A stretch of DNA of 52,448 bases from Rhodobacterales bacterium RIFCSPHIGHO2_02_FULL_62_130. Its GTDB lineage: Bacteria > Pseudomonadota > Alphaproteobacteria > Rhodobacterales > Rhodobacteraceae. The translations under genes and the position numbers were made by a program. Below are positions 35,899-52,448 of the stretch, piece by piece. The DNA lies in contig MHZT01000028.1 of NCBI GenBank assembly GCA_001828855.1, positions 1 through 52,448 on the forward strand, given 5' to 3'. Position 1 is the first letter of the stretch. Every line of letters begins with the position of its first letter. The notes beneath the pieces were generated by a model. The model saw nothing but the letters and a program-made list of their open reading frames with translations. It ran no database searches and was not told where the DNA came from.

Positions 35899-35914
35899 TG
35901 TCTCTTGTGCAACA
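35899..35914. promoter_or_regulatory. TGTC-N8-(G)ACA dyad upstream of ribH (site 1)
   Basis: TGTCTCTTGTGCAACA is one mismatch from the TGTC-N8-GACA dyad found at four other promoters of the island. It lies 100-115 bases before the ribH start, in the 346-base gene-free stretch 35800-36145. A half site TGAGACGG follows at about 35952. No FMN riboswitch is recognised in this leader. I infer control by the AcoR-like regulator. Confidence 0.5.
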
Positions 35915-36145
35915 CGGGTGATGGCACAGATTGACGCCAATTTCTCGGTATCTGAGACGGGTATTCGCGCTACGGAACCTTGCCGGACACCAAGATCGAA
36001 CTAACGCCGTCTGTTCGACTTCCTTGGTGATCGCCGAAGCTGTCGCTGCAAAAGCCTGGCGACCGTCAAGGCCGAAAAGGGCATTGGCGGAACCGTTATT
36101 CGAGAGTGAGGGCTAAAGATGCGCCACTATGGGCGATGCAAAACT

Positions 36146-36175
36146 GACTGCCCCACCAATTGTGATGGGGCAGTC
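36146..36175 (-). terminator. Terminator of the acyl-CoA dehydrogenase gene
   Basis: A perfect 10-bp stem (GACTGCCCCA / TGGGGCAGTC) with a 10-base loop lies 20 bases after the dehydrogenase stop on the minus strand and is followed by AGTTTTG. The T-run is short, so termination may be partial. Confidence 0.65.
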
Positions 36176-36194
36176 AAGCCGCGCTTTTGCGGGC

Positions 36195-37355
36195 TTATTG
36201 CCCAGCTTCTTTGATCATGCCTTTGGCGATAACAACTTGCTGGATTTGGGTCGTGCCTTCGTAGATGCGGAAAAGGCGGACGTCGCGGTAAAAGCGTTCG
36301 ATGCCATAGTCTGCAATATAGCCCGCCCCGCCGTGGATTTGCACTGCACGGTCAGCCACGCGGCCCACCATTTCGGACGCATACATTTTGCAGCTGGCCG
36401 CGTCGATGGACACGTTCTTTCCGGCATCTTTGCGACGTGCAGTTTCCTCGATCATGCAGCGGGCGGCGAAGGCCTCCGTCCGGCTGTCTGCCAGCATGGC
36501 CTGGATCAACTGCTTTTCGGCAATCGGTTCTCCGAATTGCTTGCGATCCATTGCATAGGCAAGGCTGTCACGGATCAGCCGTTCCGCTGCCCCTGTGCAG
36601 ACGGCACTGATGTGCAACCGGCCACGGTCCAGCACCTTCATCGCGGTCTTGAAGCCAAGACCTTCGCGTGCCGGACCGCCTATGATGGCAGAAGCCGGAA
36701 TACGGCAATCTTCAAGGATCACGTCGCAGGTATGCGACCCCTTTTGGCCCATCTTGCGGTCTATGGTCCCAAGCGAAAGGCCCGGCGTGCCAGCCTCGAC
36801 CAGAAATGCGGTGACGCCAGCCGAGGTCTTGGAGGTCGGGTCGGTGCGGGCGAAAACGGTAAATAGCCCAGCGCGCGGCGCATTGGTGATGTAGCGCTTG
36901 GTGCCGTTCAAGATGTAATGGTCACCGTCCTTGCGTGCAGAGGTCCGCAAGGAACCCGCGTCGGAACCGGCTTCAGGCTCGGTCAGTGCGAAAGACGCAA
37001 TCAGGTCACCCGAGGCCAGTCGCGGCAGATAGGCAGCCTTTTGCTCGGGCGTGCCGTCGATGATGATGCCCTGACTGCCGATGCCGTTATTGGTGCCGAC
37101 CAGCGAGCGGAAAGCGGGCGAGGTCTGGCCTAGGACGAAAGCGGCCTGCACCTCTTCGGACATGGTCAGGCCGATGCCGCCAAATTCCTCGGGAATGGTC
37201 AGGCCAAACAGGCCCATATCGCGGATTTCCTGCACCAGTTCCGGCGGGATCGCGTCATCGTCGGCGATGCGGGCCTCGTTGGGGATCAGTCGCTCTTTGA
37301 CAAAGCGGTCGAGCGTATCGAGGAATTGCGCCAGCGTTTCGGGATCAAGGCTCAT
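36195..37355 (-). CDS. Acyl-CoA dehydrogenase
   Basis: This 386-residue FAD enzyme oxidises an acyl-CoA to the trans-2-enoyl-CoA. FALTEPEAGSDAGSLRTSA and YITNAPRAGLFTVFARTD form the flavin-binding middle domain, KTAMKVLDRGRLHISAVCTGAAERL and QLIQAMLADSRTEAFAARCM the helical C-domain. Glu366 in FRIYEGTTQIQQ is the catalytic base. The substrate class cannot be read from sequence; it resembles short/branched-chain dehydrogenases. It diverges from an SDR gene, with a TGTC-N8-GACA site between them. Confidence 0.93.
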   Translation of the reverse strand: MSLDPETLAQFLDTLDRFVKERLIPNEARIADDDAIPPELVQEIRDMGLFGLTIPEEFGGIGLTMSEEVQAAFVLGQTSPAFRSLVGTNNGIGSQGIIIDGTPEQKAAYLPRLASGDLIASFALTEPEAGSDAGSLRTSARKDGDHYILNGTKRYITNAPRAGLFTVFARTDPTSKTSAGVTAFLVEAGTPGLSLGTIDRKMGQKGSHTCDVILEDCRIPASAIIGGPAREGLGFKTAMKVLDRGRLHISAVCTGAAERLIRDSLAYAMDRKQFGEPIAEKQLIQAMLADSRTEAFAARCMIEETARRKDAGKNVSIDAASCKMYASEMVGRVADRAVQIHGGAGYIADYGIERFYRDVRLFRIYEGTTQIQQVVIAKGMIKEAGQ

Positions 37356-37447: not shown

Positions 37448-37463
37448 TGTCGCAGAAGAGACA
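37448..37463. promoter_or_regulatory. TGTC-N8-GACA dyad between dehydrogenase and SDR genes (site 2)
   Basis: TGTCGCAGAAGAGACA is an exact TGTC-N8-GACA dyad in the 242-base region between the divergent acyl-CoA dehydrogenase (start 37355) and SDR (start 37598). TGTC recurs right after it (37466-37469). A site in this position could serve both promoters. Confidence 0.6.
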
Positions 37464-37597
37464 GTTGTCCCGAAGTCTACCCAACACTCTACTCAAAACG
37501 CGGCGCCAATGGCGCCCACGTTGCAAGGACGGGACAGCTTCTTTGGGCGCGAACAAGAGCCTGAATCCCTTCTGCGATTTTCAGGATTGGGTGCTTA

Positions 37598-38311
37598 ATG
37601 CAAGAAAAATGGGCGGTGGTCACAGGTGGGGCACGCAATATTGGCCAGGCAATCTGTCGTCGGCTTCTGGATGACGGATTCCGGGTCATTGCACTGGACA
37701 TCGTGCGCCCCCAAGACCCCGATCTTCAGGCTGATGCCGTCCTGGTCGATCTTTCGGATCGCAAGGCTGCAGAAGAGGCCCTTGATGCGATTGCAGCGAC
37801 GCATCGGGTTACGGCCCTGGTGAACAACGTGGGCATCGTCAGGCCAGCAGATTTCGACGCGGTCAATGTCGATGATTTCGAGGCGGTGCTGAACCTGAAC
37901 ACCCGCACTGCCCTGATAGCAGCCAAAGCATTGGTGCCGGGGATGCGTGAACTGGGCGGTGGAAGGATCGTCATGAATACCAGTCGTGTCACCTTGGGAA
38001 AAGAGGCGCGCAGCCTTTACAGCGCGTCAAAAGGAGCAATGCAGTCGATGGCGCGCACATGGGCGCTGGAACTGGCGCGCGATCAGATAACGGTGAATTG
38101 CGTGGCCCCTGGCCCCATCGCCACAAGTGTTTTCTGGCAGAACAACCCACCCGAAGCTGAATACACGCGCAAACTGATCGGCTCGGTTCCAGTGCAGCGC
38201 ATGGGTCGGCCCGAGGACGTCGCCAATGCCGTCAGCTTCTTCTGCGATCCGAAGGCGGATTTCGTCACCGGTCAAACGCTTTTCGTATGCGGGGGTGTGA
38301 CGGTCGGCTAG
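37598..38311 (+). CDS. Short-chain dehydrogenase/reductase 1
   Basis: This 237-residue classical SDR has the cofactor loop TGGARNIG (residues 9-16), NNVGI (76-80), Ser129, and Tyr141/Lys145 in YSASK. VNCVAPGPIATSVFW and FVTGQTLFVCGG complete it. The Asp35 after the second strand (IALDI) favours NAD(H). It probably oxidises a hydroxyacyl or alcohol intermediate. It stands alone on the + strand and converges end to end (2-base gap) with the GST gene. Confidence 0.9.
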   Translation: MQEKWAVVTGGARNIGQAICRRLLDDGFRVIALDIVRPQDPDLQADAVLVDLSDRKAAEEALDAIAATHRVTALVNNVGIVRPADFDAVNVDDFEAVLNLNTRTALIAAKALVPGMRELGGGRIVMNTSRVTLGKEARSLYSASKGAMQSMARTWALELARDQITVNCVAPGPIATSVFWQNNPPEAEYTRKLIGSVPVQRMGRPEDVANAVSFFCDPKADFVTGQTLFVCGGVTVG

Positions 38312-39056: not shown

Positions 39057-40196
39057 TTATTGCGGGAATTCGACCGAGAAAGTGGTCGGATCGTAGTCAG
39101 GAATGCCGGTCGACAGGATCAGATCGTTCGGCTTGTCCAGACGGGCATAGTCTTCGATCCATTTGTCGGCCTTGACCGAGGTCGTCTCGTCGCCCTTGGT
39201 GATGGCCACATCAACGCTCATCTCATACTGGTGCGGCACGGGTTTGCCGGCCAGAATGTCCAGACCGACCTTGACGGCAAGGCCACCCATGGCGGGCGGA
39301 TAGTCGTAGTTGAACGCAGGCTCTTTGTTCTGCACGGCCAGCTTCACGCAGCCGTTCAGGTCGGCGCAGGTGATCGGCGGCAGGTCAGTCCAGCCGGCTT
39401 CCACCATGGCTTCGATCGCACCCGAGCCTTGCAGCCCGTGGTCATTCCAGACGCCGTTGATGTCGGTGCCATATTTCTGGATAAGGGCGGCCATCACCTG
39501 CTTGCCCTTGGCCGGGCTCCAGTCGGTGTATTGCATGTCCAGAACCTTGATGTCAGGATAGTTGGCAAAGACCTCATTGGCCGCCGCAATCCGGTTCACT
39601 GCAACCGAAACGCCAGCCATGCCCGGCAGCATGACGATGTTGCCCTTGCCGCCCAGCTTTTCCACCATCCACTGCGCCGACATATGGCCGTACACATAGT
39701 CCGAGGCGGTGATGAATGTAGTGAAGTTCTCGGAAGTGATGCGACGGTCAACCAGCACAACCGGAATACCGGCTTCGTAAGCCCGCGTTACGATGGCATC
39801 CAGCGCCTCGGCAGTCGCTGCCGATACGATCAGCAGATCGACCCCGCGCGAGATCAGATCCTGCACGTCAGAGACTTGCTTCGCCGGATCGTCATTGGCG
39901 TCGGTGATGATCATCTGCTTGATCTGGTCGGCGTTGTCATGCGCCGCTTGCTGGATCGACGCCAGCATGCCTACGCGCCAGCTGTTGGAGATCGACGCGT
40001 TCGAGAAGCCGATGACATAGGGGCCATCCTTCTTGTACTGGGTCGTGTCCATGATGGTCGACGGCGTTGTGCTCCACAACATCGTGCGGGGTGCGCCTGC
40101 GTAGCCGGTCTTTTCGGCATCCTGCGCGAACGCAGTCGTAACCGACGTCGCTGCCAGACCTGCAACTAGCGCAAAATTCAGAACCTTCTTAAGCAT
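39057..40196 (-). CDS. ABC transporter substrate-binding protein, ribose/autoinducer class
   Basis: This 379-residue protein has a signal peptide (MLKKVLNFALVAGLAATSVTTAFA) and a Peripla_BP_4 fold: KDGPYVIGFSNASISNSWRVGMLASIQQAA, DLISRGVDLLIVSAATAEALD, GNIVMLPGMAGVSVAVNR and GVWNDHGLQGSGAIEAM. It has a 30-residue N-terminal extension before the fold that ribose-binding proteins lack. GGAGG precedes the start at 40196. The ligand may be a sugar or another polyol or aromatic compound. It is last of the importer genes. Confidence 0.9.
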   Translation of the reverse strand: MLKKVLNFALVAGLAATSVTTAFAQDAEKTGYAGAPRTMLWSTTPSTIMDTTQYKKDGPYVIGFSNASISNSWRVGMLASIQQAAHDNADQIKQMIITDANDDPAKQVSDVQDLISRGVDLLIVSAATAEALDAIVTRAYEAGIPVVLVDRRITSENFTTFITASDYVYGHMSAQWMVEKLGGKGNIVMLPGMAGVSVAVNRIAAANEVFANYPDIKVLDMQYTDWSPAKGKQVMAALIQKYGTDINGVWNDHGLQGSGAIEAMVEAGWTDLPPITCADLNGCVKLAVQNKEPAFNYDYPPAMGGLAVKVGLDILAGKPVPHQYEMSVDVAITKGDETTSVKADKWIEDYARLDKPNDLILSTGIPDYDPTTFSVEFPQ

Positions 40197-40310
40197 GTAG
40201 TGTCCTCCCTTGGACCGATTTTGCTGGCGCAACACCTTCTTGCGAGCAGCTTCTTTTGATCGTGAAAGTTTCCGTTGGTGTGCGGTGATCCGCGTGGGGT
40301 TTCCTCCCTT

Positions 40311-40330
40311 GGGGCAGCATGCGCTGCCCC
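40311..40330. promoter_or_regulatory. Stem-loop between permease and binding-protein genes
   Basis: GGGGCAGC-ATGC-GCTGCCCC is an 8-bp GC stem with a 4-base loop and no T-run, in the 189-base gap between the second permease and the binding protein gene. Hairpins here often protect mRNA ends or reduce read-through so that component levels differ. Confidence 0.5.
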
Positions 40331-40385
40331 ATCCGGTCACGAGAGTCCCCTCTCTCGTAAGTCTTGCGGGCCGTTGCTTTTGGCC

Positions 40386-41345
40386 TCAGATGGTTTTGCG
40401 CACGTAGAAGGCGGCGGCGACGATGATGACGGCGCCTTTGATGATGATCTGGAACTCGATGGGCAAACCGATCATCAGGACGGCGTTGAACACCACGACC
40501 AGAATTGCGGCGCCAAACAGCCCCCCCACTATCGACCCGCGACCACCCGACAAAGCCACCCCGCCCATCACCGCCGCGACGATGGAGTCCAGCTCAAAGC
40601 CGCGACCGACCCAGTTGTCTACGATGCCGACGAAGCCCGAGTAGATCAGCCCTGCAAGCGCCGCGAGCCCACCCGAGATCACATAGCTGGCGATGGTGAT
40701 GCGGTCGGCATGGATGCCCACCAGTCGCGCCATCACCGGATTGCCGCCGGTGAGGTAAACCCGACGCCCGTAGGTCGTCTTGTGCAGCAGGATCGAAAAG
40801 AATGCCGCCAGAACCACCAGGATCATCAGATTATAGGGCACACCGAAGAAGGTCTGCGAGCCCAACACGCGATAGATCGGTGGCACGTTCCCGGAAGGCG
40901 CGCCCTGCGTATAGGCAAAGCGCATGCCCTGCAGCAGCGTCATCGTCGCAAGCGTGGCCAGAAAGGGCGAGACATTGCGTTTCGTGATCAATAGCCCGTT
41001 GACCAACCCCGTCGCCAAACCGATCGAGATGGCGACGATGAACACTGGCAGGGCGTCCGTATCCTGACCGCTGAAACAGGTTGCTACCACCGCTGCCGTA
41101 GCCATGACCGATGCGACCGACAGATCCAGCCCCCGGACAAGGATCACAGGAACCTGCCCGATGACCACGATCCCCAAAGGCGCCGCCTGCAGCAGCATGT
41201 TCGAGATATTGTTTGCCGTCAGAAAGGCGGGCGACAGGATCGCCGTCACCACGATCAGCACGGCAAGCACCAAATGGATGCCGTAGTTGCGCACGATGTC
41301 CATGACCGGACTTTGCTGCGATTGGGATTGCGCGGATTGGGTCAT
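40386..41345 (-). CDS. ABC transporter permease, RbsC family (second)
   Basis: This 319-residue membrane protein has about 8-10 helices. LTANNISNMLLQAAPLGIVVIGQVPVILVRGLDLSVASVMATAAV, GLLITKRNVSPFLATLATMTLLQGMRFAYTQG and AAVMGGVALSGGRGSIVGGLFGA are the conserved RbsC segments. It starts in TGATG at the end of the previous permease gene. It pairs with that permease as a heterodimeric channel, as in ribose/xylose and autoinducer-2 importers with two permeases. Confidence 0.93.
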   Translation of the reverse strand: MTQSAQSQSQQSPVMDIVRNYGIHLVLAVLIVVTAILSPAFLTANNISNMLLQAAPLGIVVIGQVPVILVRGLDLSVASVMATAAVVATCFSGQDTDALPVFIVAISIGLATGLVNGLLITKRNVSPFLATLATMTLLQGMRFAYTQGAPSGNVPPIYRVLGSQTFFGVPYNLMILVVLAAFFSILLHKTTYGRRVYLTGGNPVMARLVGIHADRITIASYVISGGLAALAGLIYSGFVGIVDNWVGRGFELDSIVAAVMGGVALSGGRGSIVGGLFGAAILVVVFNAVLMIGLPIEFQIIIKGAVIIVAAAFYVRKTI

Positions 41346-42304
41346 CACACCTTCCTCTTGTTTTCGACGTAGACGGACACCGCGATGATCACGATCAGCC
41401 CCTGAACGATCAGTTGGTAATGGGTGGAAAGGCTCAGGAAATTCAGAAGGTTGTTCAGCAGAGAGACCAGATAAACGCCCATCAAAGTGCCGATCACCCC
41501 TCCTCTGCCACCGCTGAGCAGCGTGCCGCCAACGACCACAGGCGTGATCGAGGTCAGGGTGAAGTTCTGGCCCGTGTAGGGCTGTCCGGCCCCCAGTCGG
41601 GCGACCAGAAAGATGGACGCAACGGCCGCCATCATTCCGCAGAAGCCGTAGGCCACGAACAGGACCTTACGGCGCGGCAGGCCCATCAACTGGGCGCCGA
41701 CAGCATCGTCGCCCGTCGCATAGATATAGCGACCCAGCGGCACCTTCCGCAGGAATACGGCCGTCACCACGAACACAACGATTGTGAACACCGCACCCAG
41801 AGGCAGGCCAAGAACCCTGCCATAGGCCAATTCATCAAAGCCTTTGGGCATCTTGCCGATCGGCGTTTGGGTGTAGAGCAGCGTGATGCCCTGAAGAATT
41901 GCCCCGGTTCCAAGTGTCACGATCAGGGGATGAACGCGAAGATAGATCGAAGCGCCGGCATTGATGATGCCGACCAGCCCGCCGAGGACAAGGATCGTCA
42001 CGATGGCCACATACATCATGACCGGGTCGCCAGCCGTCAGACCCGACAAAAGCACCGAAGCGAGACTGACCATCGACCCGATGGAAAGGTCGATCCCGCC
42101 TGTAATGATCACCAATGTCTGACCCAAGCTGACAATCGCAAGCGGGGTCGATTGTTCAAGGATGTTCACGGCGTTGGAATAGGTTCCGAACTTGTCCGAG
42201 ACGATTACGCCGAACAGGGTCAGGACAAAGATCAACCCGATCACCGTCAGCAGCCCCCCGCGGCGCTTGGTCAGGAACGTGAATATGGATGCGACAGACG
42301 TCAT
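41345..42304 (-). CDS. ABC transporter permease, RbsC family (first)
   Basis: This 319-residue protein starts at the ATG at 42304, after GAGGGAAACAGC. NAVNILEQSTPLAIVSLGQTLVIITGGIDLSIGSMVSLASVLLSG and SIYLRVHPLIVTLGTGAILQGITLLYTQTP are typical. GGTLLSGGRGGVIGTLMGVYLVSLLNNLLNFL marks the C-terminal helices. It belongs to the same family as the permease that follows. The ATPase gene stands 10 bases before it. Confidence 0.93.
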   Translation of the reverse strand: MTSVASIFTFLTKRRGGLLTVIGLIFVLTLFGVIVSDKFGTYSNAVNILEQSTPLAIVSLGQTLVIITGGIDLSIGSMVSLASVLLSGLTAGDPVMMYVAIVTILVLGGLVGIINAGASIYLRVHPLIVTLGTGAILQGITLLYTQTPIGKMPKGFDELAYGRVLGLPLGAVFTIVVFVVTAVFLRKVPLGRYIYATGDDAVGAQLMGLPRRKVLFVAYGFCGMMAAVASIFLVARLGAGQPYTGQNFTLTSITPVVVGGTLLSGGRGGVIGTLMGVYLVSLLNNLLNFLSLSTHYQLIVQGLIVIIAVSVYVENKRKV

Positions 42305-42314
42305 GCTGTTTCCC

Positions 42315-43805
42315 TCAAGAAGCGCGTTTCTGGGTGGCCAGCTGGATGATCCGCTGTTCGTCGATCTGGCCCGCACCAAGCTCGCCCGTGATGACGCCTT
42401 CGCGCATGACGAAAACCCGGTCGGCCAGACCGATCACCTCGGGCATTTCCGAGCTGATCATCAGAACGGCCAGCCCCTTGGCGGCCAGTTCGCGCATGAT
42501 GCGATAGATTTCCGCCTTGGCACCTACGTCGACCCCGCGGGTCGGCTCATCCATTATGATGACCTTCTTTGAGGTGCGCGCCCAACGGGCTACCAGAACC
42601 TTTTGCTGGTTCCCACCCGACATGGTCAGTACCGCGCCCTGGGGCCCGCGGCAGGCAATGCGGTAATTCTCGATTTCAGACTTAGCGATGTCTTGCTCGG
42701 CACTGTGGTTCAACCAGCCCGACTTGCTAACACTGTTTAGATCCGAGGCACTGATATTGGTGGCCACGTCCATCAGCATGGCCAAACCCTGACCTTTGCG
42801 ATCCTCGGTCAACAGACCGATGCCCTTTTCGATGGCAAGCGACGGCGTCATCTTGCGAAAGGTCTCGCCGCCGATAGCAATCTGACCAGACGACATAGGC
42901 AGGCCACCGAACAAGGCCATCGCCAGCTCCGTGCGCCCCGCGCCGACCATGCCACTGAGGGCGGTGATCTCTCCGGCCCGCAACTCGATATTGGCATTGT
43001 GGACCCGCCCCTTCACCGACACGTCGGTTGCGGAAAGAACGACAGGGCGCGTTTGCCCCACCGGAGCCTTGGGCGGGAAAAGTTCGCTCATGTCACGGCC
43101 AACCATCAGCGACACCAAGCTGTCATTGGTCATGGCCTCGACCTGCTCGGTCGCGACGAACTGACCATCTTTGAGGACAGTCACGCGGTCGCAAAGTTCG
43201 AAGATTTCTTCCAGACGGTGCGAGATGTAGATGATCGCCACGCCGTCATCGCGCAGGGCGCGCAGGCGGCCGAAAAGCAGCTCAACCTCATGGCCGGCGA
43301 TCACCGCTGTCGGTTCATCCAGGATCAGCAGCTTGACCTTGTGGACCAGCGCTTTGGCAATTTCGACCATCTGCTGGTCGGCCACGCTCAGTTCGGCGAC
43401 CAGCGCATCCGGATCAATCTTCACGCCGAGGCGGCCCAACAGATCTGCCGCATCCTGGCGGGTCCGTGAATGGTCAATTCCATTCATAAAGCCGCGACGT
43501 TCGTGGCCCAGAAAGATATTCTCGGCGACGGTCAAGTTCGGAAACAGAACGAATTCCTGATATATGACATGAATACCGGCCGCCTTGGCAGCAGCAGGCG
43601 AAGCCCAATGAACAATTTCGCCGTCGAATTCAATCGTGCCTTCGTCCGGTTGATGAACGCCCGCAATAATTCTGGTCAGCGTTGATTTGCCGGCCCCATT
43701 CTCGCCAACCAATGCATGAATCTCACCAGCTTTGACTTCGAGGTGAACATCCGACAGGGCTTTCACCCCAGGGAAGCTTTTTGAAACCTTGGATATTGTC
43801 AGCAT
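42315..43805 (-). CDS. ABC transporter ATPase, RbsA-type double domain
   Basis: This 496-residue protein has two ATPase halves. The first has GENGAGKSTLTRIIAGVHQP (Walker A, about 36-44), LSVADQQMVEIAKAL as signature and LLILDEPTAVI as Walker B. The second has GMVGAGRTELAMALFG, LTMSGGNQQKVLVARW and VIIMDEPTRGVDVGAK. This is the layout of ribose/xylose importers. GGAGG stands 5 bases before the start at 43805. It leads the operon and diverges from the LLM monooxygenase gene. Confidence 0.95.
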   Translation of the reverse strand: MLTISKVSKSFPGVKALSDVHLEVKAGEIHALVGENGAGKSTLTRIIAGVHQPDEGTIEFDGEIVHWASPAAAKAAGIHVIYQEFVLFPNLTVAENIFLGHERRGFMNGIDHSRTRQDAADLLGRLGVKIDPDALVAELSVADQQMVEIAKALVHKVKLLILDEPTAVIAGHEVELLFGRLRALRDDGVAIIYISHRLEEIFELCDRVTVLKDGQFVATEQVEAMTNDSLVSLMVGRDMSELFPPKAPVGQTRPVVLSATDVSVKGRVHNANIELRAGEITALSGMVGAGRTELAMALFGGLPMSSGQIAIGGETFRKMTPSLAIEKGIGLLTEDRKGQGLAMLMDVATNISASDLNSVSKSGWLNHSAEQDIAKSEIENYRIACRGPQGAVLTMSGGNQQKVLVARWARTSKKVIIMDEPTRGVDVGAKAEIYRIMRELAAKGLAVLMISSEMPEVIGLADRVFVMREGVITGELGAGQIDEQRIIQLATQKRAS

Positions 43806-44459: not shown

Positions 44460-45542
44460 ATGGTAAAACTTGGCACTTTCGCGATGCCGCTGCATCCGCC
44501 GCACCGCGCGCTTCACGAAATCCTCAAGGAAAATCAGGACAAGATCATCAACGCCGACAAACTGGGCTTTGACTACGCTTATGTGGGCGAACACTATTCC
44601 TGCACGACCGAGCAGATCGCTTCGCCGCTGATCTTTTTCGCAAGCTTGATCAACCAGACCAAGAACATCAAGTTCGGCACCGGCGTCATGGGCCTGCCGC
44701 AGCACCACCCGGTGATCGTCGCCGCCGAAGTGGCCCAACTTGACCATATGTCCGGCGGCCGTTTCATTTGGGGGATCGGGCCTGGCGGTCTGGCATCCGA
44801 CCTTGAAGTGTTCGAGCACAATGACCACGCCGAACGCAACGAGATGCTGGCCGAACACCTGCGGATCGTTCTGGACATCTGGAACTCGGACGCGCCCTAC
44901 GACATCAAGGGCAAATATTGGAACGTCAAGATCGAGAAGTCGATCTACCCGGAACTGGGTATCGGTTCGATGAGCAAGCCCTTCCAGCTGCCGCACCCTC
45001 CGATCCACATCTCGACCATGTCGCCCGACAGCCCGACGGTGGCGCTGGCTGCCCGTAAGGGGTGGGTGCCAATCACCGCGAACTTCTGCCCGCATGAAAC
45101 CGTCTATGGCCACTGGAAGCAGTATGTGAAGGGCTGCGCCGATGTCGGTCGTGCCCCCACGGGCGAAGATTGGTCGGTGGCGCGCAACTTCCTGATTGGG
45201 GAAAGCGATGCGCAGGCCGAAGACTGGATGATGGATCCCAAGGGCTCCAGCCACTACTACTACGACTATATGTGGAAGGTGCTTCTGGCCGCTGACTACA
45301 CCACGGTTGGCAAGCCCGACCCGACCATCTCGAACGAAGACTGGGGCGTCGAGCGCTTCATGCGGTCGTCGATCATCTGGGGCTCGAAAAAGACCGTCCT
45401 GGAAAAGATCATGGATCTGCGCGAGAAATCCGGCCCGTTCGGCACCCTGTTGATGGCAATGACCGATGGCAGCGGCGAGAACTTTGAGCGCGAGCATCTG
45501 ACGATGCAGCGCCTTGCCGAAATCCGCCCGCTGATCAAATGA
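44460..45542 (+). CDS. LLM-class flavin-dependent monooxygenase, limonene monooxygenase-like
   Basis: This 360-residue (beta/alpha)8 bacterial-luciferase-like protein uses reduced FMN and oxygen. MVKLGTFAMPLHPPHRALHEIL, GFDYAYVGEHYSCTTEQIASPLIFFASL, KFGTGVMGLPQHHPVIVAAEVAQLDHMSGGRFIWGIGPGG and LPHPPIHISTMSPDSPTVALAARKGWVPI match the group that includes limonene 1,2-monooxygenase. No flavin reductase gene is in the window. It leads an operon with the MaoC-like and CoA-transferase genes and follows a promoter region with the island dyad. GGAGAGGAAATAAC precedes the start. The substrate is unknown. Confidence 0.9.
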   Translation: MVKLGTFAMPLHPPHRALHEILKENQDKIINADKLGFDYAYVGEHYSCTTEQIASPLIFFASLINQTKNIKFGTGVMGLPQHHPVIVAAEVAQLDHMSGGRFIWGIGPGGLASDLEVFEHNDHAERNEMLAEHLRIVLDIWNSDAPYDIKGKYWNVKIEKSIYPELGIGSMSKPFQLPHPPIHISTMSPDSPTVALAARKGWVPITANFCPHETVYGHWKQYVKGCADVGRAPTGEDWSVARNFLIGESDAQAEDWMMDPKGSSHYYYDYMWKVLLAADYTTVGKPDPTISNEDWGVERFMRSSIIWGSKKTVLEKIMDLREKSGPFGTLLMAMTDGSGENFEREHLTMQRLAEIRPLIK

Positions 45543-45548
45543 CACACG

Positions 45549-45577
45549 CACCGGCAGCCCTTCGCGGGCTGCCGGTG
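45549..45577 (+). terminator. Strong stem-loop after the LLM gene
   Basis: CACCGGCAGCCC and GGGCTGCCGGTG form a perfect 12-bp stem with a 5-base loop, 7 bases after the LLM stop. There is no T-run, so it is more likely an mRNA-stabilising end or partial attenuator that sets LLM above the two genes after it. Confidence 0.6.
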
Positions 45578-45598
45578 TCACCTTGAAGGACAAGGCGA

Positions 45599-46408
45599 AT
45601 GCCGACTGTCGATATCTTTACCTTGGCGCAAGTGCGGCGCGTTGCGGTGATGTTGGGCATCGACCCGCAAGAATTTTCCGAAGGCGATCCCATCCCCAGG
45701 GGCTGGCATTTCGCCTTGTTGGCGGGCGAAACGCCGCGTCACAACCTACGCTCGGACGGTTTCCCCGGACTTGGCGTGCCAATGCCGCAGCTTGGCCTTC
45801 CGCGTCTTTTGCTGGGGCAACGCAATACCAGTTTTCATGCAGATCTACGGATCGGCACACCAGTGACGCGACAAAGCGCGTTGACCAGTGTGGTAGAGAA
45901 GGTGGGCCGCAACGGTCCCTTCGCTATCGTGAAAGTCGAGCATATCCTCGCTGCTGTCGAGGCCCATCCCGAAGTTACTGAAACCCAGACCTATTTTCTG
46001 GCTGGCCCAACGGCCGAACCATCTGCCAAATCTGCCCCAATGATCCTGCCAGCAGGCGGTTTCAGCCAAGTTGTGAGACCTGATGACCTGTTGCTGTTCC
46101 AGTATTCGGCACTTGGCTTCAACACACACCGGATCCATTTTGACCGCGATTACGCCACTCGTGTCGAGGGTCATCCTGACCTCGTGGTGAATGGCGGCCT
46201 TGCCACATTGCTGGCAACCGAGTTCCTGCGCAGGGATCTTGGGCTTCGGGTCAAGACCCTGACAGCCCGCCACCTTGCCCCGCTTTACGTCAACCGACCG
46301 CTGACCATCGTTGCGCCGGACCTTACCGCGCCCGAGGTCCGGCTTCACCTTCTGGATGAAGGCGGAAGCGTCGCGGCAGAATTGGGGATCACCCTGGATG
46401 AGCTATGA
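45599..46408 (+). CDS. MaoC-like hydratase (mesaconyl/itaconyl-CoA hydratase type)
   Basis: This 269-residue protein is of the HTD2/Meh type: DPIPRGWHFALLAGETPRHNL, FPGLGVPMPQLGLPRLLLGQRN, IGTPVTRQSALTSVVEKVGRNGPFAIVKVEH, then DLLLFQYSALGFNTHRIHFDRDYATRVEGHPDLVVNGGL with the catalytic Asn/His hot-dog signature. The family hydrates unsaturated C5 acyl-CoAs such as mesaconyl-C4-CoA or itaconyl-CoA. Start has AAGGACAAGGCGA. It overlaps the CoA-transferase start by 11 bases, and such pairs occur in the itaconate and 3-hydroxypropionate pathways. Confidence 0.8.
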   Translation: MPTVDIFTLAQVRRVAVMLGIDPQEFSEGDPIPRGWHFALLAGETPRHNLRSDGFPGLGVPMPQLGLPRLLLGQRNTSFHADLRIGTPVTRQSALTSVVEKVGRNGPFAIVKVEHILAAVEAHPEVTETQTYFLAGPTAEPSAKSAPMILPAGGFSQVVRPDDLLLFQYSALGFNTHRIHFDRDYATRVEGHPDLVVNGGLATLLATEFLRRDLGLRVKTLTARHLAPLYVNRPLTIVAPDLTAPEVRLHLLDEGGSVAAELGITLDEL

Positions 46409-47597
46409 ACCCCTGCACGGTATCCGTGTTCTTGACCTGACAGCCGTCGTCGTGGGCCCTGCCGCCACTTGGCGACTGGGCCAATATGGTGCCGAGATCA
46501 TCAAGGTCGAAAACCCCGAAGGCGACCTGATGCGGGGTCTGGGTGGGCTTTCGCCTACCGGACAACATTCGGGCGCCTATCTGCACCTAAACCGCGGTAA
46601 GCGAAACATCTGCCTGAACCTCAAGGCGGCTGGGGCCGATGCGGTGATGCAAAGGTTGATTGAGTGGGCGGATGTCATCGTGGCCAATATGCGCCCGCAA
46701 GCGCTGGCACGGCTAGGGCTTGACGCAGAAACTATCCGCTCCAAACAACCTGAAAAGATCTACTGCCTACTTACAGGTTATGGTTCAGATGGTCCTTATG
46801 GCGGCTTTCCAACCTATGACTCAGTGGTTCAAGGCGCTGTAGGGCTGCCCGGCCTGGCTTTGGCCCGCGACGGCGCGCCAAAGTTCGTTCCCTTGTTGAT
46901 CTGCGATCATGTTGTTGGCGAAATCGCCGCTGGTGCGATCATGGCCGCCCTTTTGAACCGAAGTCGAACAGGCGCTGGTGTATCGCTGGAAGTGCCGATG
47001 TTCGAGACGATGGCGGCGATGGTGCTGCAAGAGCATCTCGCCGCGCAAAGCTTTGATCCGCCGCGCGGGCCATATGGCGACCAGCGGCTTCTGAGCCCGT
47101 TCAACCAGCCGTTGGAAACAAAGGATGGCTTCATCGCCGTCACCATCAACACCGATCCCCAGGTCAGGGCGTTCTTGACGGCGACCGGACGCGCCGAGCT
47201 TGCCTTGGACCCGCGGTTTGCAAGCGTATCGGCGCGGGCAGTGCATGTAGCGGCATGGTTCGAGGTGCGCGGCACGCCGCTGCGGCAAAAGACCAGCGCC
47301 GAATGGCTAGAGTTGTTCCGCGCTGCCGACATTGCTGCGATGCCGATCCACTCGATCGAAACCCTGCGGCACGACCCACACCTGACAGCCGTAAACCTGA
47401 TTACCCAAGAGGATCACCCGACCGAAGGCAAATCCGCTGTTCTGCGCAGTTCCGTTCTAGCGGATGGCCAGAGCCTGCCACAGCGCACGCCCACGGCACC
47501 CAAAGGGTGGGATACAGTCGCGATCCTGACCCAGCTTGGCTATTCCAGCGCCGAGGTTCAGTCGCTTTTCGATCAAGGCGCCGCACAGTCTGCCTAA
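46398..47597 (+). CDS. Family III CoA-transferase (CaiB/BaiF)
   Basis: This 399-residue protein starts at the ATG at 46398. GIRVLDLTAVVVGPAATWRLGQYGAEIIKVENPEGDLMRG is the CaiB start. YLHLNRGKRNICLNLK, IYCLLTGYGSDGPYGGFPTYDSVVQGAVGLPGLA with the catalytic Asp, and GVSLEVPMFETMAAMVLQEHL follow. It moves CoA between acids. Taken with the hydratase and acyl-CoA dehydrogenase, it would activate a carboxylate made after oxygenation. The longer frame upstream is in another reading of the hydratase gene. Confidence 0.92.
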   Translation: MSYEPLHGIRVLDLTAVVVGPAATWRLGQYGAEIIKVENPEGDLMRGLGGLSPTGQHSGAYLHLNRGKRNICLNLKAAGADAVMQRLIEWADVIVANMRPQALARLGLDAETIRSKQPEKIYCLLTGYGSDGPYGGFPTYDSVVQGAVGLPGLALARDGAPKFVPLLICDHVVGEIAAGAIMAALLNRSRTGAGVSLEVPMFETMAAMVLQEHLAAQSFDPPRGPYGDQRLLSPFNQPLETKDGFIAVTINTDPQVRAFLTATGRAELALDPRFASVSARAVHVAAWFEVRGTPLRQKTSAEWLELFRAADIAAMPIHSIETLRHDPHLTAVNLITQEDHPTEGKSAVLRSSVLADGQSLPQRTPTAPKGWDTVAILTQLGYSSAEVQSLFDQGAAQSA

Positions 47598-47662: not shown

Positions 47663-48544
47663 TCAGGCCAAAGCCACGCTGGTTGCCCGTCCTCGCTCGG
47701 ACCACAGAAGATATGCGGACCCTGCGAAGACCATCACAATCCCCGGCCAGTAGGTCATGTCCGGCGCGAAGGACAACACCACCCACGACACAAGAATATT
47801 CGAGAACAGCTTCAGATCATCAAAGGGCTGGACATAGGCCGCATCCGCCGAAGCATAGGCAAGTGTCAGGAAATGCTGGGCAAAATACATGATCGCACCG
47901 CCCAACAGCAGCAGCCACAGGATATTTCCCGAAGGCAGTTCAAACCCTGCCTGAAGCGAGAAAAGCAGGTTTACCGGCGTCAACAGCACCAACAGCCACA
48001 TGGTGATCGAGGTCTGCGGTTCATCCTTGGTCAGCCGCTTGGTGATCAGTGATGCCCCGCCCCAAGTCACGGCGGCGGCAATCGGCAACAGCGTTGCCAA
48101 GGTGAAGCCGCTTTCCCACGGGCGCAGCAGGATCATCGCGCCAGCAAAACCGATCACCGCAGCGATCCAGCGGTTAAGCCCGACATTCTCGCCCAGAAGA
48201 AGGGCCGCGCCGAACATCACAAAGAAGGGCGAGGTCATCACCAGCGCGATCACATGCCATGGCGCCATGCCGCTTGCAAAGGCTTGCGTAAAGGCCTGAA
48301 CCCCCAGCACCGACAGCAGGATACGCACCAGATGCAGAACCGGATGGCGGGTCTTCATCGAGGCCAGACCATTGCGCCAGATAAACGGGGCCGAGAAGAC
48401 CGTCGCGATGGCATATTGCCAAAACGCGTCCGACTGCGCTTTGAACCCCATCTTGTAGGTGACGGTCCAAGTGACGGCATTGGCCAGCGCAAAGCAGATG
48501 CCTGCCAGCACCATGAAAGCCGCGCCCTTCAGATTTGCGTTCAT
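47663..48544 (-). CDS. DMT/EamA-family transporter, possible riboflavin carrier
   Basis: This 293-residue protein has ten predicted helices in two EamA repeats (GAAFMVLAGICFALANAVTWTVTYKMG; LLPIAAAVTWGGASLITKRLT). VQAFTQAFASGMAPWHVIALVMTSPFFVMFGAALLLGENVGLNRWIAAVIGFAGAMILLRP is a typical middle. It follows a riboflavin kinase gene after 10 bases. Rhizobial RibN, a riboflavin importer, belongs to this superfamily, so flavin transport is a reasonable guess from context; sequence alone cannot set substrate or direction. GGGAGACAAC precedes the ATG at 48544. Confidence 0.8.
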   Translation of the reverse strand: MNANLKGAAFMVLAGICFALANAVTWTVTYKMGFKAQSDAFWQYAIATVFSAPFIWRNGLASMKTRHPVLHLVRILLSVLGVQAFTQAFASGMAPWHVIALVMTSPFFVMFGAALLLGENVGLNRWIAAVIGFAGAMILLRPWESGFTLATLLPIAAAVTWGGASLITKRLTKDEPQTSITMWLLVLLTPVNLLFSLQAGFELPSGNILWLLLLGGAIMYFAQHFLTLAYASADAAYVQPFDDLKLFSNILVSWVVLSFAPDMTYWPGIVMVFAGSAYLLWSERGRATSVALA

Positions 48545-48554
48545 TGTTGTCTCC

Positions 48555-48938
48555 CTATTTCCCGCTGGCGTTGATTGCCCGTGCTGCTTCGATATCGCCC
48601 TGCATTGCCGCAATCAGCGCGTCCACAGACTCGAAGCGCAGTTCCGGCCGGATGAAGGCAAGCAGCTTCACTTCGATCTCGCGTCCGTAGATATCCCCTT
48701 GAAAATCCAGGATATGCGTTTCGATCCTTTGATCTACCCCGTCAAATGTCGGTCGCGTACCGTAAGATGTGACCGAGGACCACACTTTTTCAGTTCCGGC
48801 GATCCGGGTCTGCGAGGCATAGACACCATAAGCCAAGGAAGCTCGGGCGTTCAGGTTGGCTGTGGGAAAACCAAGAACCCGTCCGCGCTTGTCGCCATGC
48901 GCCACCCTGCCCCGCAGATCCATCGGTAATTCAGTCAT
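48555..48938 (-). CDS. Stand-alone riboflavin kinase
   Basis: This 127-residue protein is only the kinase half of RibF: DLRGRVAHGDKRGRVLGFPTANL with the GxxxGRxLGFPTAN phosphate and flavin-binding motif, YGVYASQTRI, VTSYGTRPTFDG and ETHILDFQGDIYGREIEVKLLAFIRPELRFESVDALIAAM with the catalytic Glu. The FAD synthetase half is absent. It turns riboflavin into FMN, the cofactor needed by the LLM enzyme. The ATG at 48938 overlaps the SDR stop and has GGGGGGAG upstream. Confidence 0.9.
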   Translation of the reverse strand: MTELPMDLRGRVAHGDKRGRVLGFPTANLNARASLAYGVYASQTRIAGTEKVWSSVTSYGTRPTFDGVDQRIETHILDFQGDIYGREIEVKLLAFIRPELRFESVDALIAAMQGDIEAARAINASGK

Positions 48939-49717
48939 TCTCCCCCCCTTTGGCCACGTTGACGCCCCCCATCCACGACCAGATCGGTTCCGGTCACGAA
49001 CCTTGACGCATCAGAGCACAGATAAAGTGCAGCCTGTGCAATGTCCTCACCGCGACCGAGCCGCCCCAACGGAACGCCAGTCGATTGTCCGGCTTCTTCA
49101 TAAAGCCGCTTGACGCCCTCGGTGCCACCGATTGGCCCCGGAGCGATGGTGTTACACAGGATGCCATCCGGCCCCCATTCGACCGCGAGGCTCCGGATCA
49201 GCGACATGACGCCAGCCTTGGCCGCGGCTGCATGGGCGCAGCCCGGCCACCCTTCAAGTGCGCGCATCGTGGTGATCGCGATGAAGCGCCCACCATAAGA
49301 TGATGCCTTGAGATAGGGGTAAGCGGCCTTGGCGCAATGGAATGTGCCATGCAGGTCGATATCGATCACCGTCCGCCATGCGTTAAAGGACATATCGGCA
49401 AAGGGAACGACAAAGTTGCCCGCCGCATTGGCCACCAAGATGTCAAGCCCCCCGAAGGTGTCTACCGCATTTGCCACCGCCGCCTGAACCGCCTCGGGTT
49501 CCCGAACATCGGCAACAACGCCCATAGCCCGCCCGCCAATAGCGTTGATGACGTTGGCGGCTTCGGCAACACGATCCGCCTTGCGGCTGGCCACCACGAC
49601 CTGCGCCCCGGCCCCGGCCAAAGCCTGTGCAATGGCAAAGCCGATACCGCTTCCGCCGCCGGTGACAAGCGCGGTGCGGCCTTTGAGGCAATCAGGGGCG
49701 AACGGAGAGTTCGTCAT
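48935..49717 (-). CDS. SDR 2, 2,4-dienoyl-CoA reductase-like
   Basis: This 260-residue protein has the cofactor loop TGGGSGIG and VVVASRKADR, where the Arg favours NADPH. ANAAGNFVVPFADMSFNAWRTVIDIDLHGTF and EWGPDGILCNTIAPGPIGGTEGVKRL match peroxisomal and bacterial 2,4-dienoyl-CoA reductases. The usual YxxxK is HAAAAK, so the Tyr is missing as it is in that subfamily. It would reduce a dienoyl-CoA made from an unsaturated substrate. It leads an operon with riboflavin kinase and the transporter. Confidence 0.88.
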   Translation of the reverse strand: MTNSPFAPDCLKGRTALVTGGGSGIGFAIAQALAGAGAQVVVASRKADRVAEAANVINAIGGRAMGVVADVREPEAVQAAVANAVDTFGGLDILVANAAGNFVVPFADMSFNAWRTVIDIDLHGTFHCAKAAYPYLKASSYGGRFIAITTMRALEGWPGCAHAAAAKAGVMSLIRSLAVEWGPDGILCNTIAPGPIGGTEGVKRLYEEAGQSTGVPLGRLGRGEDIAQAALYLCSDASRFVTGTDLVVDGGRQRGQRGGE

Positions 49718-49899
49718 GTCGGGGCATAAACCTTGTGAAGGAATCAGAAAGCCGTTGGGGCAGTGGTATGCATCGTCGGGTAGGAAACGCAGAATGACCT
49801 TGGGCGGCGCAGATCACGGATTTGCCGTGTCAACGATGTCTTTCATGGCAGCTCCTCAATCCCCTGCAGATGCTGCCGATAGCCACTTCGCGCCGCAAC

Positions 49900-49915
49900 T
49901 GTCCATTTTGCGACA
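49900..49915. promoter_or_regulatory. TGTC-N8-GACA dyad upstream of the SDR 2/riboflavin kinase operon (site 4)
   Basis: TGTCCATTTTGCGACA is an exact TGTC-N8-GACA dyad, 183 bases before the SDR 2 start. The distance suits an enhancer-like activator site. It shares TG at positions 10-11 with sites 1, 3 and 5. Confidence 0.6.
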
Positions 49916-50134: not shown

Positions 50135-50156
50135 GCCCGAGGGTCGCGCTTCGGGC
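50135..50156 (-). terminator. Weak terminator after the regulator gene
   Basis: GCCCGA and TCGGGC form a 6-bp stem with a 10-base loop, 8 bases after the regulator stop on the minus strand. Only CTTAAAG follows, so termination may be weak and read-through into SDR 2 is possible. Confidence 0.45.
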
Positions 50157-50163
50157 CTGCCAA

Positions 50164-52023
50164 TCAGGCGTCGCCGCGCGCCTTCTGGATGTGGATCTTG
50201 CGATACAAGGTCGCCCGAGACACGCCAAGATAGCGCGCGGTGAGCGACACGTTCCCGCCGTTGTAACGCAACGCCGCCTCGATTTTCGACGCCTCTGACT
50301 GAGAGCGGGCGGTCAGGTCCTTGCGGGCGATCTTGGCCACAATATGTTCTGGCAAATGTTCCAGACCGATCACCCTGCCATCGGCAAGTGCTACAGCATG
50401 GCGCAAGGTATTACGCAGTTCCCGCACGTTTCCGGGCCAGTGGTAATGGGTCAGCAAAAGCCGCGCATCATCGTCCATCTCGACATGCTGTTTGCCAAGG
50501 CCGTCCCGCTCGATCCTGAACAGGTCTTTCACGGTAGACTCAAGGTCGGGCACTGCTCTAAGTGGACCAAGTGCCACCTGCCCGCCATTCAGGCGGTGCA
50601 TAAGGTCAAGTCGCATCCGGTTGTCAGCCACCAGTTGGTCAAGTTCCGGCCGCGAAATCACGATGACGCCAAGGCCGTTCACACCAAACTGCCTCTCACG
50701 TTCGAGGACGGCCAAAAGGGTGGTCTGGCCGAGTTCATCCATTTCGTCGATGCGGTCGATCAGCAGGCATGACCTGCGCACCCCGTGCTGGCGCTGCAGC
50801 AAGGCCCCCAAGTTGGCGGAGCTTTCCGGTGCGGCACAATCGATAAAGATGATATCGCCATCCGCGCCATAGAAGCTGCGAGCAACCGTCTTTGCAAAGG
50901 CAGTCTTGCCCGCGCCCGTTTCCCCTGTGATCACCAGAGGCAAGCCAACCGACAATAACCGCCGCGCCCGATCAAGCCCTTGCGACAAGATAGGGTTAAT
51001 GCGCATCTCTTCTTCTGCAAGATCAATAGGGCGCGGAACGGCTACCGCAGTTCGCGTCAAGACCGAATTGGTCGACGTTCGGCGCGGTGCGTCCGGCACA
51101 CTCAACACCGCCTGCAACGTGCGTCCTTGATACGTCAGGCTTACAGGCGCATCGGGGCGGATATCGCACAAAGCACGGTCCATCTCGAACAGATCCTCGG
51201 CAGACTGACCGACCAGATCGCCGACCGATTTGCCGAGCAGTCGTGTCGCGAAAGACGAGCCATCCATGATGCGGCCATTGTCATCGAGTGCAAGCCGCCC
51301 CTCTTCGGCAATGTCGGCAACCTGGCCATTTTCGAGAAACCGCAGCATCATGTTGCGACGGTTCAGACGTCCAAAATAGCCGTTCTCGATCCTTCGGGCC
51401 GAGCGTTCGACGATTTTCTGCACCATAAGGTTTACGCGGGTATCTCCATGGCGTGCCGTCGTGACGTTGATTACGCTTTCAATCGCGCCGTCGCGACCGA
51501 GCACTGGAGCCGTCAGGCAGGTCAGGCGCATGATGGCAGCGCCGTAGTGCTGTGTGCCCGCGATAATCACAGGCTTTCCCACGCGCAGACAGGTGCCGAC
51601 CCCGTTGGTACCCTGCTGGTCCTCAGACCAAACCGACCCCGGAATCACCCCTGATCCAGCCAATTCATCAAGATACTGATAGTCGCAGCGGAACAGCACC
51701 ATCGCCCCTTCGGTCGTGGCCAATGACACCAAGTATTCACTGTCAACCAACTGCCGGAACAGGCGCTCAACTTCGGGTTCGGCGATCCGCATGAACTCTT
51801 CGCGCTCTTCCATCCGGGTGCGGATTTCCGAATGGCTCAAGACAGATGCGCGCGGCACGGCGTCGGGCAAAAGATTGTAATCCGTCAGGCAACGCTTCCA
51901 GGATTGCTCGACCATGTCGGGCAAACGAGCCTCATCAGAGCCGCGCGACCGTAGTATGCTTTGGATCTCATTCGTGACCGTGTCGTTGTATCCGCGCGGT
52001 CCCAGTGTTTCCGTCTCCCACAT
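50164..52023 (-). CDS. AcoR-type transcriptional regulator without GAFTGA
   Basis: This 619-residue protein has a GAF sensor part (about 60-200, with SEDQQGTNGVGTCLRVGKPVIIAGTQHY), a PAS-like part (240-310), an AAA+ domain (340-550) and a Fis-type HTH at the end (SLTARYLGVSRATLYRKI). Walker A is GETGAGKT (367-374) and Walker B CLLIDRID (419-426). The stretch between them is short and carries no GAFTGA, the loop that contacts sigma-54. It may thus act with sigma-70, as Rhodobacter NtrC does. The ATG at 52023 is 7 bases after GGAGG. The sensed ligand is unknown. Confidence 0.88.
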   Translation of the reverse strand: MWETETLGPRGYNDTVTNEIQSILRSRGSDEARLPDMVEQSWKRCLTDYNLLPDAVPRASVLSHSEIRTRMEEREEFMRIAEPEVERLFRQLVDSEYLVSLATTEGAMVLFRCDYQYLDELAGSGVIPGSVWSEDQQGTNGVGTCLRVGKPVIIAGTQHYGAAIMRLTCLTAPVLGRDGAIESVINVTTARHGDTRVNLMVQKIVERSARRIENGYFGRLNRRNMMLRFLENGQVADIAEEGRLALDDNGRIMDGSSFATRLLGKSVGDLVGQSAEDLFEMDRALCDIRPDAPVSLTYQGRTLQAVLSVPDAPRRTSTNSVLTRTAVAVPRPIDLAEEEMRINPILSQGLDRARRLLSVGLPLVITGETGAGKTAFAKTVARSFYGADGDIIFIDCAAPESSANLGALLQRQHGVRRSCLLIDRIDEMDELGQTTLLAVLERERQFGVNGLGVIVISRPELDQLVADNRMRLDLMHRLNGGQVALGPLRAVPDLESTVKDLFRIERDGLGKQHVEMDDDARLLLTHYHWPGNVRELRNTLRHAVALADGRVIGLEHLPEHIVAKIARKDLTARSQSEASKIEAALRYNGGNVSLTARYLGVSRATLYRKIHIQKARGDA

Positions 52024-52448
52024 CATGCCCCTCCCAAGACAGTTTGTGTGCAAGCCTTACCTGCGGCAAAACTTACAGATGCTCCCTTCCCGCAGGCCTT
52101 CTGGCCCGTCTGATTTTCCGGACCGGTTGTTCTTGTTTTGCCTTGCTGAACGCAGTTGAGCCCAAGAATGAGACTGCCGCAACTTGACAAGTTTGCATGA
52201 AAAGCCGGTCACCACGCACTTTTCTCTCTATGCCTTTCCGGATCAACTCCCCGATCCAGCATGCAGAGTAATGGTGATTGCTAAATGCAGCTATGTTTAA
52301 GCTGCGACTGCCAACTGTCTCACCTTGTCTCAGATGTGACAGTGCTTTGGCGGCAGATACAAACCCCGATTGGGGCGTTGGATTTTCTGGCTCCGGAGTT
52401 TTCCGGCGTCAGGGTTTTGGCTATTGAGCGACGGATGAGCGTTTTCCG
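52024..52448. other. Upstream region of the regulator, to the window edge
   Basis: No complete gene is seen in these 425 bases. The region holds the exact dyad site 5 (52326-52341), a further half site CTGTCTCA at 52317-52324, and TTTAAGCTGCG-rich DNA. A gene that starts just beyond the right edge could be controlled from here too. Confidence 0.45.
52326..52341. promoter_or_regulatory. TGTC-N8-GACA dyad upstream of the regulator (site 5)
   Basis: TGTCTCAGATGTGACA is an exact TGTC-N8-GACA dyad with extended symmetry (TGTCnCAnnTGnGACA). It lies 303 bases before the regulator start. CTGTCTCA stands a few bases before it as an extra half site. It may serve autoregulation or a divergent gene outside the window. 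Confidence 0.6.

Follow-up and report, generated by a model that had tools for sequence, protein, structure and literature searches.

The 52,448-base stretch analysed here (the window), contig MHZT01000028.1 of Rhodobacterales bacterium RIFCSPHIGHO2_02_FULL_62_130, carries a catabolic island in which a 16 bp dyad, TGTC-N8-GACA, is found at five promoters. Comparison with related islands shows the dyad to be conserved and restricted to promoters, marking a single regulon that extends over the island and brings together flavin synthesis, riboflavin kinase, LLM monooxygenases, importers and beta-oxidation-type enzymes. The best explanation as a whole, in which we have considerable confidence, is that the dyad would be the operator of the GAF/AAA+/HTH_8 regulator encoded at 50164–52023 on the − strand, and that this protein would activate weak sigma-70-type promoters.

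The sequence-only reading had placed the dyad at 35899, 37448, 44148, 49900 and 52326, and all letters were confirmed there, as was the division into three exact sites (37448, 49900 and 52326) and two with one mismatch (35899 and 44148). The five were also said to be in gene-free DNA and, with genes assigned from open reading frames, Pfam and homology, all lie between recognised genes. O1 (35899–35914, − strand, TGTTGCACAAGAGACA, one mismatch) is 100 bp before the ribH ATG at 35799. An identical copy of this 16-mer precedes ribH in the same-genus genome G001 (L054:2363) and a similar copy is found at L057:9475. O2 (37448–37463, + strand, exact) occupies the gap bounded by the starts of the acyl-CoA dehydrogenase gene (37355, − strand) and the SDR1 gene (37598, + strand), and in the corresponding set of seven promoters from six lineages the operator identity is 0.93, compared with 0.44–0.50 in the flanks. 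O3 (44148–44163, no strand assigned, one mismatch) lies between the genes for an ABC importer (− strand) and an LLM monooxygenase (+ strand, start 44460), and the same divergent gap of G001 holds an exact dyad that was outside the training set described below (L121:7576, 22.0 bits). O4 (49900–49915, − strand, exact, with the weakest inner bases) is 183 bp before the SDR2 gene (49717), which is followed by genes for riboflavin kinase and an EamA transporter; its counterparts precede SDR2 in L053, L054 and L057. O5 (52326–52341, − strand, exact) is 303 bp before the ATG of the regulator gene (52023).

Two further features accompany the regulator promoter. An extra half-site, TGAGACA (52316–52322, − strand), forms a tandem arrangement with O5, from which 3 bp separate it. 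Among seven flavin reductase 2 or regulator promoters compared, it was exact and at the same spacing in four, had one changed base in a fifth and was absent from two. This third half-site follows the dyads at L052:9311, L006:10539, L054:11668, L053:9803 (as TGAGACG) and window position 52326, and may reflect cooperative binding. The ribosome-binding region directly before the regulator ATG is itself dyad-like (TGTCTTGGGAGGGGCA, 52026–52041, − strand). NGTCTTGGGAGGGRCA was present at all eight regulator starts compared, with a first base other than T in two, and the dyad-like shape of the region (TGTCTTGGGAGGGRCA) is conserved at the regulator starts of the window and of L006, L052–L055, L057 and L060. 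It may serve in autoregulation or may simply be a strong ribosome-binding site.

By itself the exact pattern is weak evidence; the strong evidence lies in the conservation of the sites and in their inner bases. The window contains three exact dyads against 0.77 expected, and at least three were reached in three of 100 shuffles. With up to one mismatch there were 27 against 16.8 expected, a number reached in none of 100 shuffles; 22 of the 27 are at places other than O1–O5. Genome-wide, the exact pattern was not enriched, with 42 occurrences and 42 of a reversed control, and for this reason it is not usable alone. A weight matrix built from 14 unique sites of other lineages gave a sharper result, placing the five sites at ranks 1–5 of the whole window, with 23.6 (O5), 21.9 (O2), 16.0 (O1), 15.8 (O3) and 14.0 bits (O4) and a sixth best of 10.1 bits. 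None of 200 first-order Markov sequences had five matches at that level (mean 0.34, most 3). As the training sites contain the TGTC/GACA core by construction, only the inner eight bases of the exact sites are independently tested by this ranking. When the matrix was trained without the window's own genome, C28:52326, C28:37448, C45:2614 and C52:641 were the top four of the 42 exact sites in that genome, with two other island sites in 8th and 13th place. The consensus refined from the exact dyads of the islands is CTGTCTCWNNWGAGACAG.

The regulator and its dyads recur together in other islands. A paralogue of the regulator (75 % identical) lies in an island of its own on contig C52 of the same genome, with two more exact dyads in its neighbourhood, one before an ABC importer gene and one before an SDR gene, and contig C45 has one exact dyad before a 2,3-butanediol-dehydrogenase-like gene and none in the rest of the contig. 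Orthologues were found in the same-genus genomes G001 (72 % identical) and G003 (64 %), and no other of the 147 genomes searched had one above 42 %. Stagnihabitans tardus has two copies (74 and 77 %), and five records of Agrobacterium, Rhizobium and Phaeobacter plasmids include orthologues with 61.6–72.6 % identity, for which four of the five islands were examined. The gene sets of the islands vary and are drawn from LLM monooxygenases, flavin reductases, CoA-transferases, acyl-CoA dehydrogenase, thiolase, importers and flavin genes (ribA, ribH, ribB or riboflavin kinase). The presence of such an island, with a 72.6 % identical regulator, on a Rhizobiaceae plasmid points to horizontal transfer.

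All eight orthologue loci scanned contained exact dyads, two to five per locus and 26 in total. Twenty-four of these are between genes, one of them at the ribosome-binding site of the regulator gene (L054:12362), and the other two are inside a TRAP permease gene (L058:18756 and its L059 counterpart). When nine loci were scored leaving out one lineage at a time, there were 34 matches of at least 14 bits in 18.95 kb of intergenic DNA and one in 145.7 kb of coding DNA, the sole coding match (L057:9475) being in an annotated SDR fragment before ribH, a place equivalent to that of O1. This count took the window from 29337 onwards. L059 and L060, near copies of L058 and L057, contributed sites to matrix training (duplicates collapsed) without being scanned in this count. 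The ribosome-binding-region dyad was left out of training, except for the ranking of the 42 exact genome sites. For unannotated loci, gene boundaries are hand-rounded tblastn limits. In seven loci (L055 and L005 were omitted), a match of at least 12 bits was found in 13/17 divergent gaps, 17/48 co-directional gaps and 0/15 convergent gaps. Operator identity in five promoter families was 0.75–0.93, compared with 0.26–0.50 in the 60-base flanks, a contrast that is due in part to selection because the operators were picked as best matches. Among four further stretches from G001 and G003, L121 and L122 gave strong matches, the best being L121:7576, L121:3899 and L122:2751, before LLM2/ABC2, ABC1 and ABC2 genes, respectively; L121:7576 and L122:2751 were known beforehand from the strict-pattern genome scan described below, and L121:3899 is letter-identical to a training site. 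In the other two stretches, L123 and L124, nothing exceeded 6.7 bits.

Scanning this and related genomes for enrichment, as the sequence-only reading had proposed, gave a result that depends on the form of the pattern: the matrix matches are concentrated between genes and kept at matching promoters, and the exact letters show no genome-wide excess. That last count, and the three shuffles in which three exact dyads arose, are what would be expected of chance palindromes. Conservation and promoter restriction are not, and the matrix ranking, the intergenic/coding contrast and the gap test refute this explanation in practice, leaving it a negligible probability.

The strict form of the dyad, TGTCNCWNNWGNGACA, was counted in the 147 genomes. 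G000, G001 and G003, in which a close regulator is present, had three, one and three matches, and all seven are on island contigs. Among the other 144 genomes, 32 had a strict match, 20 of the matches being in G007 and 39 in the remaining 31 genomes together; the reversed control had 35 in the 144. G007 belongs to the same genus and its 20 matches are dispersed. The 14 that were listed are all the same perfect palindrome, TGTCCCAGCTGGGACA, which may represent another regulon or a repeat family.

The regulator is a protein of 619 amino acids in which Pfam recognised GAF, a low-scoring sigma-54-activator AAA+ domain and HTH_8. A C-terminal Fis-type helix-turn-helix (HTH) domain (HTH_8) together with an N-terminal sensor (GAF) is the domain arrangement of the sigma-54 enhancer-binding class. 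However, no GAFTGA-type motif was found in any of the ten island-type regulators checked, that of the window included, and in an alignment to ZraR the GAFTGA stretch falls opposite GALL and gaps. Walker A is present in all ten, and Walker B is not DE in any of them (DR in nine, including the window regulator, and DN in one). The best NCBIfam model, DhaR (NF008485), matched with 151 bits, far under its cut-off of 551 bits. A second GAFTGA-less regulator, 37 % identical, is encoded in the G003 island (L055:15153–16865) beside an exact dyad at 14897.

A link between this type of protein and the half-site came from more distant relatives. Around these, dyads with an N10 centre outnumbered those with N8 (11 against 2 in 27 loci; 12 with N10 in 35 loci). 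Seven of the 12 N10 dyads are beside short GAF/HTH_8 genes and the other five are without the half-site. Five of the short proteins were tested with Pfam, and GAF and HTH_8 were found and AAA+ was absent. The short family was represented by 18 loci (L091–L108), those judged short among the 31 rows of a search with one short protein, with long-frame rows excluded. TGTCKCA-N4-TGMGACA was present in 14 of the 18, 20–84 bp from the matched region (L091 by subtraction, at a contig end), and a looser form with an N4 centre in two more, at 175 and 273 bp; none of the 18 had an N8 dyad near the regulator. Six of the 18 had suggested the pattern, which was found in 10 of the other 12. Ten long-frame loci were also scanned, and N8 was found in none and N10 in two. 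Counts of N7 and N13 dyads in the short family (7/18 loci each) were set aside, as these occur at recurring places some 500–1250 bp from the regulator. AAA-less GAF/HTH_8 regulators with a nearby N4-centred dyad are found in L041, L043, L046–L049, L051 and L091–L107. The window sites do not match the N4-centred form, having the same half-site but two central bases. The HTH of the short family resembles that of the window regulator, and TGTCKCA is possibly a family-wide operator code of GAF/HTH_8 regulators. The best argument so far for recognition of the dyad by the HTH_8 regulator, in preference to some other protein, is that the half-site recurs with different spacing beside the members of one protein family, and the GAF/AAA+/HTH_8 regulator is likely to be the protein that binds it.

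The surroundings of the operators suggest how it would act. In many of the operator-anchored alignments, TTG stands on one side of the dyad, separated from it by a single base, usually G or A. Counted over all 70 flanks, which repeats the tally of alignments whose sides had been picked after TTG was seen, TTG was at operator +2 to +4 in 19, compared with 0, 1, 1, 4, 3 and 0 of 70 at other offsets, homologous promoters not being independent. Per operator (n=35), it is on one side in 17, on both in one and on neither in 17. A putative sigma-70-type promoter of SDR1, TTGTCC-N17-TCTACT (37465–37493, + strand), begins one base past O2. A TTGTCC-like-N17-TCTACT arrangement is shared within the BDH/SDR1 family, with TCTACT at the same spacing in five of seven homologous promoters. 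Similarly, TTGCGG-N17-CAGCAT (49870–49898, − strand), the putative promoter of the SDR2 operon, begins one base past O4, and the family form is TTGC-N17-CAGSAT, with CAGCAT or CAGGAT at the same spacing in four of five homologous promoters. The putative ribH promoter, TTTACC-N17-GTAGCC (35869–35897, − strand), one base past O1, is weak and has no conserved −10. Operator-anchored alignments of the HADH, ribH, ABC2 and L052 SDR1 promoter sets had no common −10. On the opposite side of the operator, roughly 25 bp downstream, a second shared block was read by eye. With TTG one base from 18 of 35 operators and a −10-like hexamer 17 bases further on in two families, a sigma-70-type activator fits better than a sigma-54 enhancer, and a sigma-70, class II mode of action is plausible but unproven.

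Several points weigh against reading the dyad as an activating operator of this regulator. The inner bases of O4 are poor, and among the 42 exact genomic sites it ranks only 13th, with C52:7034 in 8th place. With up to one mismatch, 8/15 occurrences of the strict pattern in the window's own genome are on C28, C45 and C52, 7/15 are outside the islands, and the reversed control gives 12. Sites and flanks are not independent counts because the islands share ancestry. Seventeen of the 35 operators have TTG on neither side, a conserved −10-like hexamer is confined to two aligned promoter families, and the GTTG next to the dyad may belong to a longer half-site (CAAC-TGTC), in which case it would not be a −35 box. 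The genome encodes two paralogues of the regulator, and a given site may be bound by either. Co-location of regulator and sites is compatible with another factor. Short dyads are bound by many unrelated proteins, and this one could be a real operator for a different DNA-binding protein, with its gene elsewhere in the same genomes. We consider this improbable, as the regulator is the only transcription factor recognised as common to the islands (no search aimed at others was made in the unannotated loci), sites and regulator move together between Rhodobacterales and Rhizobiaceae plasmids, and the half-site recurs beside its AAA-less relatives.

The final point, and the only result to argue against the sigma-70 promoter geometry, concerns a sigma-54-like sequence, TGGCGCCCACGTTGCA (10 of 11 positions), at 37510, between O2 and SDR1. 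This good −24/−12-like match, the retention of Walker A and HTH_8 by the regulator, and the fit of TGTC-N8-GACA to the TGT-N10-ACA pattern linked with NifA, a wording used in 8 of 12 papers listed, would all suit a sigma-54-dependent enhancer site from which a normal AcoR/NifA-type activator acts at a distance by DNA looping. GAFTGA is missing from all ten island-type regulators, however, and their Walker B is altered. A −24/−12 scan of the nine loci gave 72 matches at nine or more of 11 positions, of which only 37510 shares a gap with a window operator, and no match like it was among the 72 listed at the homologous (BDH-type) promoters. A sigma-54 promoter was rejected as the main mechanism on these grounds, and we regard the explanation as very unlikely. 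The sequence-only reading had called the dyad the operator of an AcoR-like regulator. The protein remains the best candidate, given the seven strict matches on island contigs in the three genomes with a close orthologue, the second copy in its own island with further sites, and the half-site beside related GAF/HTH_8 regulators, but with GAFTGA missing 'AcoR-like' should not be taken to mean sigma-54-dependent.

A stronger competitor retains the same operator and regulator and makes the protein a repressor released by an inducer. The operator adjoins the putative −35 element and O5 stands before the regulator's own gene, as a repressor site might. On the other hand, the operator does not cover the putative −35/−10 interval, the putative promoters are poor consensus matches, as expected if they depend on an activator, and in divergent gaps a single operator lies at unequal distances from the two genes. 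We consider repression a minority possibility, clearly behind activation.

In the activator model, a dimer of the Fis-type HTH would bind CTGTCTCA-NN-TGAGACAG, and the GAF domain would sense a compound of the pathway, upon which the regulator would activate weak sigma-70-type promoters. The −35 element (TTGNNN) would lie one base beyond the operator, placing the operator centre near −44, as for a class II activator, and in divergent gaps one operator would act on both promoters, the opposite one being about 25 bp more distant. Deprived of its sigma-54 contact motif, the AAA+ domain would have a role in assembly or allostery instead of sigma-54 remodelling. The regulator probably also controls its own gene via O5.

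The predicted regulon includes ribH, for lumazine synthase (35362–35799, − strand), acyl-CoA dehydrogenase (36195–37355, − strand), the SDR1 oxidoreductase (37598–38311, + strand), a sugar-type ABC importer consisting of a binding protein, two permeases and an ATPase (39057–43961, − strand, with the ATPase start probably near 43804), an LLM flavin monooxygenase with a MaoC-like/FAS1-dehydratase-like protein and a family III CoA-transferase (44460–47597, + strand), and the EamA transporter, riboflavin kinase and SDR2 (47663–49717, − strand). Conservation of the dyad at corresponding promoters in other islands supports the proposal of one regulon in which flavin genes (ribH and the riboflavin kinase operon) are joined with catabolism. 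No operator of their own was found for the ribBA-like and riboflavin synthase genes (32235–34003, − strand) in the matrix scan of the window. Beyond the LLM enzymes, the remaining genes would be in keeping with a pathway that opens a ring and leads to a 3-oxoadipyl-CoA-type intermediate. With a diol-type dehydrogenase, LLM monooxygenase, semialdehyde dehydrogenase, CoA-transferase, acyl-CoA dehydrogenase and 3-oxoadipyl-CoA thiolase, the pathway may be of the cyclohexane-1,2-diol-to-adipate type. A transposase gene (34023–35204) separates riboflavin synthase from ribH and seems to break up the flavin cluster, and the same contig carries lambda-like prophage genes at 5682–24020 (terminase gpA, portal, S49 protease, capsid E, tape measure and tail).

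If this reading holds, an unannotated plasmid/island pathway of Rhodobacterales and Rhizobiaceae is turned into a regulon defined by an exact DNA code, and its members can be listed by sequence even when they are on separate contigs. It suggests that bacteria induce cofactor supply, from riboflavin to FMN, along with a flavin-hungry degradation pathway. It would also allow a test of whether an enhancer-binding protein has exchanged sigma-54 promoters for those of sigma-70, and TGTCKCA would be a half-site code of GAF/HTH_8 regulators. We give about even odds to the broader picture, in which a GAF-sensing relative of the enhancer-binding proteins gave up sigma-54 and became a class II activator working from a 16 bp dyad fused to the −35 box, a mobile regulon induces flavin synthesis, riboflavin kinase and flavin-dependent catabolism as a unit, and regulators with and without AAA form a series that uses one half-site with the spacing switched by 2 bp.

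Among the matches listed in the open-access literature there was no published report of the dyad operator or of the island, and queries with the motif letters gave mostly unrelated papers. The sequence-only reading had found no way to tie the dyad to a published site, but a tie exists to a class. The available text of PMC6615313 describes TGT...ACA inverted repeats as upstream activator sequences of enhancer-binding proteins with a Fis-type HTH (NifA, FhlA) in fifteen Clostridiales groups. O1, O2, O4 and O5 conform to this pattern and O3, ending in ACG, is off by one base. The island dyad shares with the class, as described there, the inverted TGT/ACA ends, an inner distance (10 bp) within its 10–12 bp, the Fis-type HTH and several target operons. 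It differs in its four specific outer bases (TGTC/GACA) and inner CA..TG, in the many sites that adjoin a putative −35, and in a regulator without GAFTGA; the same text places its AcoR among groups with distinct motifs. Compared with AcoR/DhaR-type regulators generally, the order of AAA+ then HTH_8 is alike, but the island regulator is far below the DhaR cut-off and its AAA+ motifs are degenerate. The AAA-less GAF/HTH_8 regulators (L041–L051 and L091–L108, five of them Pfam-tested) have the same TGTCKCA half-site and a similar HTH, but theirs has a 4 bp centre in place of 2 bp and they are without AAA+. GAFTGA-less NtrC of Rhodobacter capsulatus and Caulobacter, and VspR, are reported in the portion of PMC10274813 available to act on sigma-70 promoters. 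The likeness is in the enhancer-binding-protein architecture with the sigma-54 motif missing. NtrC is a two-component response regulator, whereas the island regulator has GAF and is tied to a plasmid/island catabolic regulon. On the enzyme side, the closest solved relative (PDB) of both island LLM enzymes tested is 3,6-diketocamphane 1,6-monooxygenase; the diketocamphane monooxygenases of the CAM plasmid (4uwm; PMC6352141, in its available part) likewise have flavin reductase genes nearby, but the island enzymes are distant from them in sequence.

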